Positions 8,044 through 12,730 of a stretch of DNA of 47,119 bases are shown in pieces. The notes below the pieces were generated by a model. That model was not told the DNA's origin. It saw nothing but the letters and a program-made list of their open reading frames with translations, and searched no databases. Both the position numbers and the translations under genes were made by a program. This stretch comes from Halorubrum ezzemoulense DSM 17463 (lineage in GTDB: Archaea; Halobacteriota; Halobacteria; Halobacteriales; Haloferacaceae). Every line of letters begins with the position of its first letter. Position 1 is the stretch's first letter. The stretch spans positions 1 through 47,119 of the forward strand of contig NZ_NEDJ01000024.1 of the NCBI RefSeq assembly GCF_002114285.1, written 5' to 3'.

Positions 8044-8739
8044 TCACGAGTTGCGGCCGCGGCGCCGAGCGAGCAGCGACGCGCCCGCGATCGCCGCGGC
8101 CGACGCGACGGCACCGAACCCGGGGAGGTCGTACGCGGTCGAGCGTATCGGCGCGTCGTCGTATCCGAGGTCGCTCGGGGCGACCGAGTCGGAAGATGAA
8201 CCGCTCGCCTCGGACGACGTCGACGACTCGGCCGAATCGGTCGACTGCGCGTCCACGCGCTCGTCGGCGCGGTTCGCGGTCGACTGCTCACCGCCCGAGG
8301 GGTCCGCAGGGCCGGGTCCGTCACCCCCGGTGAGGCCGCCGGTACCGAAGGCCTCGGACGGCCCGGCAGACGACGGGATATCGGTGCGACCCGGAGCGAC
8401 CGAGATCCCTACGTCGGGGGGACGCGTCGAGCGATTCGCGTCCACGCCGGTCGACCCTCCCGTGGGGTCCGAACGGTTGCTGGCAGCGGCGTCGGCGGAG
8501 TCTGGTGGAGTAGTAGTGTCCGACGGAACGGCGGGATCAGCACCACTTCCGGCGTTAGCGGGGGCACTACCCGGACCGTCGCTCCCGTCCGACTCCCTAC
8601 CTGTCGAACCACCCCCGGCGACCGGCCCGCCACCGGGGGCCGCCGACCCGCCGCCGCTGGCCGGCCCGCCGCCAGACGCGCTAGTGCCCGCCGTCGCCCC
8701 GGACGGGTTCGCCGCCGTCGGGCCGCCCGGCGCGCTCAC
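8044..8739 (-). CDS. C-terminal part of the surface glycoprotein: Gly/Pro/Ser stalk and PGF-CTERM anchor (out of frame)
   Basis: This 231-codon frame encodes a low-complexity Gly/Pro/Ser/Thr/Asp-rich stalk and ends with DLPGF, a hydrophobic Ala-rich helix and an RRRGR tail. That is a textbook PGF-CTERM signal, with PGF at residues 206-208. PGF-CTERM proteins are exported, cut by archaeosortase A and lipid-attached, so they need a signal peptide. This frame has none. It starts with GTG overlapping the TGA of the upstream repeat-bearing frame (GTGA), and the upstream frame has a signal peptide but no anchor. I infer that the two are one gene separated by a -1 frame shift, which could be a sequencing slip, a real mutation, phase variation or programmed recoding. 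Confidence 0.8.
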   Translation of the reverse strand: MSAPGGPTAANPSGATAGTSASGGGPASGGGSAAPGGGPVAGGGSTGRESDGSDGPGSAPANAGSGADPAVPSDTTTPPDSADAAASNRSDPTGGSTGVDANRSTRPPDVGISVAPGRTDIPSSAGPSEAFGTGGLTGGDGPGPADPSGGEQSTANRADERVDAQSTDSAESSTSSEASGSSSDSVAPSDLGYDDAPIRSTAYDLPGFGAVASAAAIAGASLLARRRGRNS

Positions 8740-11705
8740 GGCCGTCGATCCGTTCCGCCGAACGCTCGGTCCGTCTCGACAGTTGCGTTGGCACTACGCG
8801 ATTGATCTGTTCCGGCGGTCTCGTTGTCGCTGAGCGATTGGTTCGTTCCGACCGTTTCGTTACCACTGGGCGATCGGTTCGTTCCGACCGTTTCGTTACC
8901 ACTGGGCGATCGGTTCGTTCCGGCCGTCTCGTTGCCACTAATCGATTGATTTGTTCCGGCCGTCTCGTTGCCACTGAGCGATCGGTTTGTTCCAGCCGTT
9001 TCGTTGCCACTAATCGATTGGTTCGTTCCGACCGTTTCGTTACCACTGGGCGATCGGTTCGTTCCGGCCGTCTCGTTGCCACTAATCGATTGATTTGTTC
9101 CGACCGTCTCGTTGCCACTGAGCGATCGGTTTGTTCCAGCCGTTTCGTTGCCACTAGTCGATTGGTTCGTTCTGGCCGTCTCGTTGCTACTGAGCGATTG
9201 ATTCGTTCCGGCCGTTCCCTCGGGCGTCGCGTTCTCCGCGAGGGAGTCGGCCGGATCGAGAGCACCGTAGGTCAGGTTGGTCGTCACGCGGTGACGGTCG
9301 TTCGCCGCGGTCTCGCGCAACCGATCGTCGTCAACTCGGAACGTGCCCTCGAACGTCTCGCCCGGATCGGGCGGTGTCTCGGTGCCGAACGCGTGCTCTC
9401 CGTCGGCGACGAGGAACAGGCCGTCCCGGTCGAGGTGGACCGCGGATTCGTTCGGCATCCGGCCCACTGCCTCGCCCTCGGTCGAACCGTTCGCGTCGTC
9501 CGCGTCTGCCGGTGCCACTCCGAACGACAGGCCGTCGAGACGAGCAAGGTCCTCCCCGCGTTCCAGCGACGCGTTCGCGGCCGCAGGAAGGCCGGTGAGT
9601 CCGGACGCATTCACCCCGTACACGACCGTGTCGTTCGCGGTCGCAGTCGCGGCGGGTGCGAGCGTTCCGTCGGCGATCGCCTCGCGTATCTCGGTCGCGT
9701 TCGCGAAGTCGCCCGCCGAGGCCGCCCGCGTCGTGTACGCGGTCAGGTTGCCAGTCGAGCGGGGTCCGACCGTGACCGTGGCGGTATCTGTGGCGGTCTC
9801 GGTGCCGTGTTCCGACCGCAGCGTGAGATTATACGTTCCGGGCGAGAGCGGGTCAGTATGGCCCGTGACCGACTCGATGTCAACTCCGGACCCCGTCGTG
9901 ACGAACGCTGAAGAGTTCGGCGACGCATACGTGTTGACCGATACGGGAGTGGGTCCCGTATCAGTAGTTGTCATTTCGAGTGCTGTTGTACTGTTACCTG
10001 TCGTATTGGCAAGAACAAGTTCCAAATCTGGGACACTATGAGACAAAGAAGTCTTGATAGAGTCCGCATAAGCAACTCGGCTGGGGGAATCATTCAAACT
10101 GATGTCTTTTTTCTCTCGCCCAATAATGTCAAATTTTCTTGTGTTTCCAGTATTCGTGTGAATATAATATGTACCTGAAGATAGCAGTGAAGTGTTATAC
10201 TGAATGTAGGATGAATTATTCACCCGCGTGCCTACTGAAACGACACGGGTTGTGTTGTCCTTACTAATTTTGTGTAATTCGACACTTTTTGGGTCTGAAG
10301 GACTTCTATAACAAATGGGTTGGCCAGAATATACTGGTTTATTTAGCGACTCGTTACGTTTAATGTGGATACCTTCTGAGCAGGAGACGTTTGTGCTAAC
10401 AGTGGTTATTGAAATAACACCGCCATCTGCAACACCGTCGGAAACAAACTGCTCATTAAGATCAGAGTTACGAAGCAGCTCGGAATCCCTCGGAGAAATC
10501 CAGTCACCACCGCTATAGTCACGTGCTAGTTGAATAGCAACAGCATAACGATTACTGCGGAAAATACCACGCTTGTAAGTTGTAGTGTTGAAATAGAGAG
10601 AGACATTGTCATTCCATCCTGTCAGGACTTTCGAATTAGCTATTATATTATCTTTTAGAATATATCCAGTTGAATTGACTGGATGAAGTGATACAAAGAA
10701 TGGAGTCTTTTCATCAATTGTATCAGAAACTCTGGCGAAAGAAACTACAATTTTATTTCTCTGTGGACTGCTATATGATCGATTATGGAAATATACATCT
10801 GCGGTAACAATGCGCCCACTATCAGTGGACAATGCCGAAGAGGTCATATTGGGGGGTAATTGTTCTAAAGTGCTATAATCAGAATCACCAAGAGTGGAGT
10901 TAGCAACAAGAAAAGCCTTGACATCACCTCCAGGGTGTGCTGTATCCACAGAAATTGATTCTTTCTGATTGAAAGTATTTATAGAGACACCTCGTTGTCC
11001 AATCACTTCATTCTCATCGTCACGTGTGATGAATAATGTAGAATTTGTATTCCCACTAAGATTGTCAACTGTTATTCCAATTGTTGTGGGTGTATTTCGA
11101 TGTAACTGTGGTGAGCCAGTCGCCTGATCTGGGACGTTAAGAGTACCGTCAATGATTTTGAACGGACTTGTATTTGACACATCTTGTATTTCTCTAGAAG
11201 GATGTGTAGAACTATTAGTGACGCCGACACTATATGTTAGCTTCTCTGATTTACTTGCGTTATTTGTGGCAATTCCAGATATTTGAGCAGAGTCAATTTG
11301 TATTGAGTGAGCCGTTTTATTGGGACGAATAGTTGCTGTTAAAAATGACTTATGGTCAGAATTCAGGTAGGAAGTATTAGTTACAGATCCATTTTGAATG
11401 CTATTAATTGATATTGAAGCAGAAGAGGTGCGAACACCTTTTGATTTAACGCTAGTCAGGTTCACAAACAATTTGATACTTTGAACACTGTCTGCTTGAT
11501 TTAATATAATGCTTATATTACTAATGTTTTGACTGGATTTGCCTACCCGAAGACTATCTGGACTGCCAGATTTATTTAAATAGACGCTCTGATCAGAATT
11601 TTGGGCTGTAACGGTATTTGCGCCGAGCAGTAGCGCAACAGTAACAATTACCAGACAGGCAACTATTCCGACCGACACCCATCGAAGCGATCGCGTTCGG
11701 ATCAT
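8736..11705 (-). CDS. Large secreted surface glycoprotein, N-terminal part (signal peptide, ectodomain, sequon repeats)
   Basis: The 989-codon frame begins with a Sec-type signal peptide: basic MIRTRSLRW, a hydrophobic core to about residue 33, and a likely cut after TVTA. About residues 25-575 are a Ser/Thr/Asn-rich ectodomain encoded by AT-rich DNA (about 10,000-11,620) with codon use unlike any neighbour. About residues 580-830 are GC-rich and contain a segment resembling haloarchaeal BGTF/DUF7827-type surface domains (PDPGETFEGTFRVDDD). Residues 831-974 are twelve 12-residue repeats of the form TAGTNQSxSGNE, each with two N-x-S/T sequons. The frame then stops, while the missing PGF-CTERM anchor lies in the next frame. 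The intact product would be a heavily glycosylated, archaeosortase-processed cell-wall protein. It is not clearly the main S-layer protein. Confidence 0.85.
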   Translation of the reverse strand: MIRTRSLRWVSVGIVACLVIVTVALLLGANTVTAQNSDQSVYLNKSGSPDSLRVGKSSQNISNISIILNQADSVQSIKLFVNLTSVKSKGVRTSSASISINSIQNGSVTNTSYLNSDHKSFLTATIRPNKTAHSIQIDSAQISGIATNNASKSEKLTYSVGVTNSSTHPSREIQDVSNTSPFKIIDGTLNVPDQATGSPQLHRNTPTTIGITVDNLSGNTNSTLFITRDDENEVIGQRGVSINTFNQKESISVDTAHPGGDVKAFLVANSTLGDSDYSTLEQLPPNMTSSALSTDSGRIVTADVYFHNRSYSSPQRNKIVVSFARVSDTIDEKTPFFVSLHPVNSTGYILKDNIIANSKVLTGWNDNVSLYFNTTTYKRGIFRSNRYAVAIQLARDYSGGDWISPRDSELLRNSDLNEQFVSDGVADGGVISITTVSTNVSCSEGIHIKRNESLNKPVYSGQPICYRSPSDPKSVELHKISKDNTTRVVSVGTRVNNSSYIQYNTSLLSSGTYYIHTNTGNTRKFDIIGREKKDISLNDSPSRVAYADSIKTSLSHSVPDLELVLANTTGNSTTALEMTTTDTGPTPVSVNTYASPNSSAFVTTGSGVDIESVTGHTDPLSPGTYNLTLRSEHGTETATDTATVTVGPRSTGNLTAYTTRAASAGDFANATEIREAIADGTLAPAATATANDTVVYGVNASGLTGLPAAANASLERGEDLARLDGLSFGVAPADADDANGSTEGEAVGRMPNESAVHLDRDGLFLVADGEHAFGTETPPDPGETFEGTFRVDDDRLRETAANDRHRVTTNLTYGALDPADSLAENATPEGTAGTNQSLSSNETARTNQSTSGNETAGTNRSLSGNETVGTNQSISGNETAGTNRSPSGNETVGTNQSISGNETAGTNRSLSGNETAGTNQSISGNETAGTNRSPSGNETVGTNRSPSGNETVGTNQSLSDNETAGTDQSRSANATVETDRAFGGTDRRP
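8784..9215 (-). repeat. Twelve 36-bp minisatellite units within the surface glycoprotein gene
   Basis: Twelve head-to-tail 36-bp units each encode 12 residues of the pattern T-A/V-G-T-N-Q/R-S-x-S-G-N-E. The first and last units are the most diverged (SSNE, and DQSRSANA), and the inner ones alternate NQS and NRS forms. Each unit carries two N-glycosylation sequons (NQS or NRS, and NET across the junction). The unit length is a multiple of three, so whole-unit gain or loss would change stalk length without breaking the frame. Confidence 0.92.
10000..11620. other. AT-rich island inside the surface glycoprotein gene
   Basis: This interval is visibly AT-rich with many A/T third positions, while both the signal-peptide end (about 11,620-11,705) and the distal coding part (below about 9,960) have the GC-rich composition of the rest of the window. 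The reading frame stays open across both borders. The simplest inference is that the exposed ectodomain was replaced by recombination with foreign or divergent DNA while the export signal and anchor were retained. The borders are approximate, judged by eye. Confidence 0.7.
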
Positions 11706-11954: not shown

Positions 11955-12617
11955 TCAGTGCTCGACCGCTTCCATCATCGAGAGGAGTTGGTCAGACTGG
12001 TCGATCTCGACGGGATGGACGCCCACCAGCGCGATCACGTCGTCGTCGTGCTGGACGGTGCCGATGTAGACGAGGACGGGAATGTCTTCGACAGAGCCGC
12101 TCTGACCGCCGTCGCCACTGACCTCCGCGCTGACGGTGGTTTCGAGGATCGAGACGGAGGTTTCCTCGTCGAGGATCGTCCGAGTCTCCTCACCGCGCTT
12201 CTCGATGTCGTCGGCTTGGATGTCGGTGCCGTTGCCGCCGATCCCTTGCTGGTCGACCTGACTGAGGAGCCGCCGGATGAGCTCCGCGTCGTCGGCCCGG
12301 ACGAGCGGATTGACCGACTGCCCGCCGATCGAAGCGTTGGGGGTACTCGCCACGAACAGCGCTGATCCCACCGTCTGGTTGGTGTAGCGGGCGATCCACG
12401 TCGTTGCGGACACGTCCGCGTTCACGCCCGCGGCGTTGAACTCCTGATCGATGGTGAACGACTCCGGATCCTCACCGGAGAACCCCTCGGCGTACGCGCT
12501 CTCCGGGATGCGCGCCGGTTCGGCGTCGAACTCGTAGCTCCCGTCCTCGCCGGCGCACCCGGCGATTGCGACCGAAGTCGACGCTGCGAGCGCCGCGAGC
12601 CGCCCACGTCGTTTCAT
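11955..12617 (-). CDS. Secreted lipoprotein, DUF6517-like
   Basis: The 220-residue protein starts MKRRGRLAALAAS, a signal peptide ending in the lipobox IAGC with the lipidated Cys at residue 21, so the mature protein should be anchored to the outer face of the membrane. The body (FDAEPARIPESAY, then an EFNAAGV segment, then FVASTPNASIGGQSVNPL) resembles the haloarchaeal DUF6517 lipoprotein family as I remember it. The function of that family is unknown. The ATG at 12617 was chosen because it places the lipobox correctly; the upstream in-frame extension overlaps the divergent promoter and is Arg/Pro-rich shadow sequence. It is transcribed divergently from the membrane protein at 12731. Confidence 0.85.
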   Translation of the reverse strand: MKRRGRLAALAASTSVAIAGCAGEDGSYEFDAEPARIPESAYAEGFSGEDPESFTIDQEFNAAGVNADVSATTWIARYTNQTVGSALFVASTPNASIGGQSVNPLVRADDAELIRRLLSQVDQQGIGGNGTDIQADDIEKRGEETRTILDEETSVSILETTVSAEVSGDGGQSGSVEDIPVLVYIGTVQHDDDVIALVGVHPVEIDQSDQLLSMMEAVEH

Positions 12618-12730
12618 GCGTTCGGGTAGGTCTACGCAGTTCTTTAAGCCTATCGGCGCGGGTATCGGTCGCGAGAACCCCGCAGCCGAAGGCACAAAGT
12701 TCACGTCGGGCCGCGCGCGACGTGAGGCAA

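Follow-up and report, generated by a model that had tools for sequence, protein, structure and literature searches.

Two overlapping reading frames on the minus strand of the window, the whole 47,119-nucleotide stretch of Halorubrum DNA that was analyzed, appear to share the parts of a single surface glycoprotein, with a signal peptide in the upper frame and a membrane anchor in the lower frame. This arrangement raises the questions of whether the two frames represent one gene, whether the break between them is real, and what kind of surface protein the gene encodes. To answer these questions, the locus was compared with its counterparts throughout the genus.

The two frames and their intact relatives

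The earlier note, made from the letters of this DNA, had described an upper frame with a signal peptide and sequon repeats that lacks an anchor, followed by a lower frame with a PGF-CTERM anchor, the two overlapping at GTGA (8736-8739). The overlap was confirmed from the ORF coordinates, and the division of parts was confirmed by the ORFs and by a match of the lower frame to the Pfam PGF-CTERM family (PF18204; cut-off 18.8 bits). The score of the lower frame against NCBIfam TIGR04126 was 18.3 bits, which is under the cut-off of 24.5, and the remainder of the protein outside the anchor matched none of the Pfam and NCBIfam families. The signal peptide of the upper ORF (MIRTRSLRWVSVGIVACLVIVTVALLLGANTVTAQ) was assigned by eye from the sequence, not by a predictor. 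The features of the split gene are collected in Table 1.

Table 1. Coordinates of the frames and parts of the split surface glycoprotein gene in the window
Feature	Positions	Strand	Description
Upper ORF	8736-11705	-	989 aa; signal peptide, class B N-domain, middle domain and sequon repeats; without anchor
Signal peptide region	11601-11705	-	Assigned by eye; conserved across species of both classes
N-terminal domain, class B of two alternatives	9993-11600	-	Low GC; GC3 0.30
Middle domain	9240-9992	-	High GC, conserved; identity 64-79% in close clade
Tandem array	8786-9215	-	11.9 copies of a 36-bp (12-aa) unit; two N-glycosylation sequons per unit
Interval necessarily holding the frame break	8739-8793	-	Between TAG (lower frame) and TGA (upper frame)
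Lower frame, 249 open codons	8044-8793	-	Gly/Ser-rich linker, acidic stretch and anchor; matches C-terminal part of intact relatives
Lower ORF	8044-8739	-	231 aa
PGF-CTERM sorting motif, transmembrane segment and basic end	8059-8124	-	PF18204, 20.5 bits

The two frames stood in a net -1 relation. Stops of the lower frame were abundant in the repeat array, the last of them being the TAG at 8794-8796, and the upper frame terminated at the TGA at 8736-8738. Because of these two stops, the frame change is confined to the interval between them, which bears out the proposed position of the -1 break, shortly before the PGF-CTERM anchor. GC3 calculated by frame gave no narrower placement of the break, with the linker being ambiguous.

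The middle domain was present in 46 of 52 Halorubrum genomes, and the gene adjoined gltB in nearly all Halorubrum genomes that have it. In 35 of the Halorubrum genomes, the signal peptide, N-domain, middle domain, linker, and PGF-type anchor were all encoded in a single open frame. The split arrangement in the window is thus beyond chance, since in relatives a single frame encodes both parts and has the same C-terminus. Among the Halorubrum genomes compared, the anchor was out of frame only in the window and in H. californiense, in which seven Ns at the frame switch in the linker represent an assembly gap. Apart from this relative, no homologue with separate genes, which had been named as the counter-evidence to seek, was found.

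The intact relatives resembled the PGF-CTERM substrates of archaeosortase A (ArtA) in haloarchaea in having a signal peptide, a glycosylated stalk, and the PF18204 anchor. The window differs from these substrates in that its anchor is out of frame with the secreted N-terminus, whereas the two are in frame in the 35 relatives. Judged from this comparison of sequences, the upper and lower frames almost certainly represent one PGF-CTERM-anchored surface glycoprotein gene of the genus Halorubrum, as the one-gene view of the earlier note held.

Sequon-rich tandem arrays with differing units were observed in the linkers of the window species and of one other species. The whole proteins of these two array-bearing species contained 61 and 52 sequons, compared with 31-42 in close relatives. 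Acquisition of glycosylation arrays by the stalk seems to have occurred independently in these species.

Two classes of the N-terminal domain

In every genome examined, the N-terminal ~530 residues were encoded with a GC3 of 0.23-0.42 and the next domain with a GC3 of 0.74-0.96. In a phylogenetic tree of the N-domain, based on one genome per species, the deepest split (support 100) separated class A (19 members) from class B (21 members, including the window copy), a genus-wide division that the earlier note had not recognized. Between the classes, even species with middle domains of 89-92% identity had N-domains that were only 22-27% identical in pairwise alignment. In a profile comparison of class A with class B, alignment was restricted to the final ~100 columns, adjoining the middle domain. 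The borders of the classes were sharp: DNA identity between the classes decreased from ~0.9 to 0.4 about 60 bases past the start codon and recovered where the GC content rises, at the middle domain.

Each Halorubrum genome carried one class at the locus, as determined from 170 genomes searched with each class, and the same search revealed no silent full-length second copy, including in the genome of the window. Relatives of the protein were not found on plasmids, and class A was not found in viral contigs. With partial genes counted, the ratio of the classes was about 21:26, which was not different from 1:1.

To place the class labels on the trees, 13 changes were required for the middle domain, compared with a shuffled mean of 13.6, and 12 were required for gltB, compared with a shuffled mean of 12.3. 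The classes therefore carry no species signal, as the numbers of changes match the shuffled means on both trees. Within each class, the divergence of the N-domain was correlated with that of gltB (Mantel rho of 0.80 for class A and 0.48 for class B; p 0.001); between the classes, the two divergences were hardly related (rho of 0.14). The dN/dS ratio within the classes was ~0.2.

The simplest reading of these sequence data is an ancient, balanced, trans-species dimorphism of the N-domain, in which both classes arose before the main Halorubrum clades and were retained by them, and close species swap classes via the conserved flanks. A lack of homologous exchange between the classes may explain why the exchangeable part has a low GC3.

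Origin of the frame break and lesions in other species

Taken alone, a frame break of this kind is ordinary, whether it arose by a recent lesion or by an error, but the gene that it interrupts is not. The break is present in the assembly; rather than recoding, it most likely indicates that the anchor has recently been lost or that the sequence is in error. Among the options listed in the earlier note, knock-out and sequencing slip both remain, whereas phase variation and recoding were unsupported.

Between the two surviving options, we lean toward a real and recent lesion. A recent net loss of one base, or an equivalent indel, in the disordered linker would have shifted the anchor into another frame. 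With a real lesion, the exported protein would have 989 residues and no archaeosortase anchor, and this product would presumably be released or only loosely held, resulting in loss of surface display. A scan for frame breaks flagged several ORFs, those inspected being spurious antisense or upstream-extended frames, and no other unambiguous break was detected in ~118 conserved ORFs, which came from three contigs of this assembly totaling 163 kb. Knock-out is favored over slip because of this lack of other breaks in 163 kb, together with independent lesions of the gene in other species. Over the 43 codons at the end of the lower frame, the dN/dS ratio against relatives was 0.27-0.41, and that of intact pairs was 0.25-0.52. 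Because the anchor part matches intact pairs and exhibits no decay, the break is either recent or false.

A sequencing or assembly error, with the strain itself having an intact one-frame gene, is the less probable of the two but still a substantial alternative. The host assembly is a single draft of 155 contigs, and the site lies next to a tandem array of 430 bp, in DNA of 75% GC, where short-read assemblies err. An N gap occurs in the same linker of another Halorubrum assembly, and an adapter sequence lies inside gltB of yet another. The unrelaxed constraint on the anchor part is also consistent with an error, although it fits a recent mutation equally well. Against an error, the break interval contains no homopolymer of more than two bases, the conserved ORFs of the assembly show no other frame break, and collapse of the 36-bp array would preserve the frame.

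Programmed -1 frameshifting, which would yield released and anchored forms from one mRNA, is very unlikely, although the frames are in a -1 relation and overlap only briefly. The interval contains no X XXY YYZ heptamer, and, following a -1 slip, none of its codons could re-pair at more than a single base. Its predicted fold was ordinary (z of -0.05), with 88 of 200 shuffled sequences folding as well in a test of pseudoknot-free structures. Furthermore, the 35 homologues encoding the protein in one frame require no shift, and the frame overlap is not conserved among homologues. Phase variation driven by the adjacent minisatellite is excluded in the form proposed, because the 36-bp unit is a multiple of 3 and changes in copy number keep the frame. 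Least probable of all are two separate genes translationally coupled via the stop-start overlap GTGA, since the lower ORF lacks a signal peptide and resembles intact relatives solely in their C-terminal part, and since the parts are separately encoded in no relative except the one with an assembly gap.

A real lesion in the window would have counterparts elsewhere in the genus. H. halophilum B8 contained two IS insertions in the N-domain, the first being an IS5-type element (DDE_Tnp_1) with an 8-bp duplication (GTTGGTAT) and 93-94% identity to plasmid-borne copies, and the second having an 8-bp duplication of its own (GATCTCAA). An IS with an 8-bp duplication (AAATGCTA) was found in the N-domain of Halorubrum sp. 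GN11_10-6_MGM, and an IS with a 9-bp duplication (CTTATGAGG) was found in the gene of G107. In G124, the gene ended at the same IS terminus as in GN11_10-6_MGM, with one IS end only. One of the IS inserts within the N-domain loci was ~0.9 kb in length (485-1384 of the oriented locus). Several of these IS lesions were joined from two contig ends, with the inserted element itself not read through. H. yunnanense Q85 exhibited a frame break in the N-domain (about 2971-2976 of the oriented locus), which could be an error.

In the adjacent gltB, which is longer than the surface gene, no real break was found in 42 genomes. The number of lesions in the surface gene (6/46) exceeded that in gltB (0/42) in this small comparison (Fisher p of 0.027), and a preference of IS elements for the AT-rich N-domain may explain part of the excess. 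The gene probably undergoes repeated loss because selection, for example by viruses, acts on its exposed outer domain.

The H. lipolyticum assembly contained a Nextera adapter (AGATGTGTATAAGAGACAG) and an N inside gltB (10541-10660 of the locus); gltB of this species looks frameshifted as a result, and this split, the only one seen in gltB, was discounted in the comparison.

Predicted fold, possible role, and comparable systems

Structural prediction using AlphaFold showed class A as a chain of beta domains (pLDDT of 75.9) and class B as all-beta, the latter being a poor model (pLDDT of 58.4). The matches from Foldseek were long Ig-like chains and had TM scores below 0.25, and no relatives with solved structures were found by sequence. 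From these models, the N-domain is predicted to be beta-rich and Ig-like, with likeness to known structures only at the level of a tandem Ig-like fold.

A stalked, glycosylated, and anchored outer domain that has two alternative faces and is often lost would be consistent with a site of virus attachment or with a protein of partner recognition. A further reading, with a probability of roughly 0.6, is that the gene encodes a recognition or receptor protein, of which two ancient and mutually exclusive outer-domain classes are held under balancing selection throughout Halorubrum, whether by virus evasion or by self/non-self recognition in cell fusion. According to this reading, close species swap the classes via conserved flanks, and IS elements and frameshifts, including that of the window, repeatedly disable the gene. 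Two unrelated outer domains on a conserved stalk, near 1:1 in frequency, random with respect to species, and each old, constitute a pattern of long-term balancing selection. To our knowledge, loci under long-term balancing selection have rarely been documented in archaea. The gene stands as a concrete candidate, either for a virus receptor or for a protein of partner recognition, and the restriction of low GC3 to the exchangeable part offers a testable case of the relation between base composition and recombination. A literature search, with subscription journals mostly outside its coverage, found no paper describing the two classes of this gene.

Dimorphic surface antigens under balancing selection are known from other organisms, the merozoite antigens of malaria parasites being an example. 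In both cases, one exposed domain has two allelic classes separated by a deep split; the Halorubrum case differs in being archaeal and in having its classes distributed across the species of a genus.

Among archaea, the nearest comparison is with the VARTIG hypervariable Ig proteins, which occur in Thermococcales and have no reported counterpart in other archaea (PMC8416519). They are similar in being large surface proteins, probably with Ig-like domains, in which one exchangeable and highly variable part is spread by recombination. However, the hypervariable Ig domain of VARTIG proteins is C-terminal, whereas the variable part of the Halorubrum protein is N-terminal and occurs in two discrete ancient classes instead of many. 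In addition, the Halorubrum gene has no variable downstream genes, its neighbors gltB and a lipoprotein gene being conserved.

The S-layer and other surface glycoproteins of haloarchaea also vary by recombination and mobile elements, with viruses proposed as the driver, as in the Haloquadratum surface island GI1 (PMC4535781). The Halorubrum gene differs from these islands in being a two-class cassette that is kept genus-wide beside gltB. Virus pressure on Halorubrum surface proteins is concrete, because H. lacusprofundi escapes a virus by altering its S-layer, which serves as the virus receptor (PMC10544981).

The surface gene itself was considered as an S-layer gene and rejected. Its upper ORF showed no match above the curated cut-off to the NCBIfam families, including the S-layer glycoprotein family TIGR04216, and the same genome encodes its own intact major S-layer glycoprotein (TIGR04216; 637.8 bits) on another contig (7865-10306). 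No TIGR04216 match above the cut-off was obtained in the few other Halorubrum genomes searched. Beside the surface gene, the putative lipoprotein gene (11955-12704 of the window) exhibited ~72% identity, compared with mostly 90-97% for the other neighbors.
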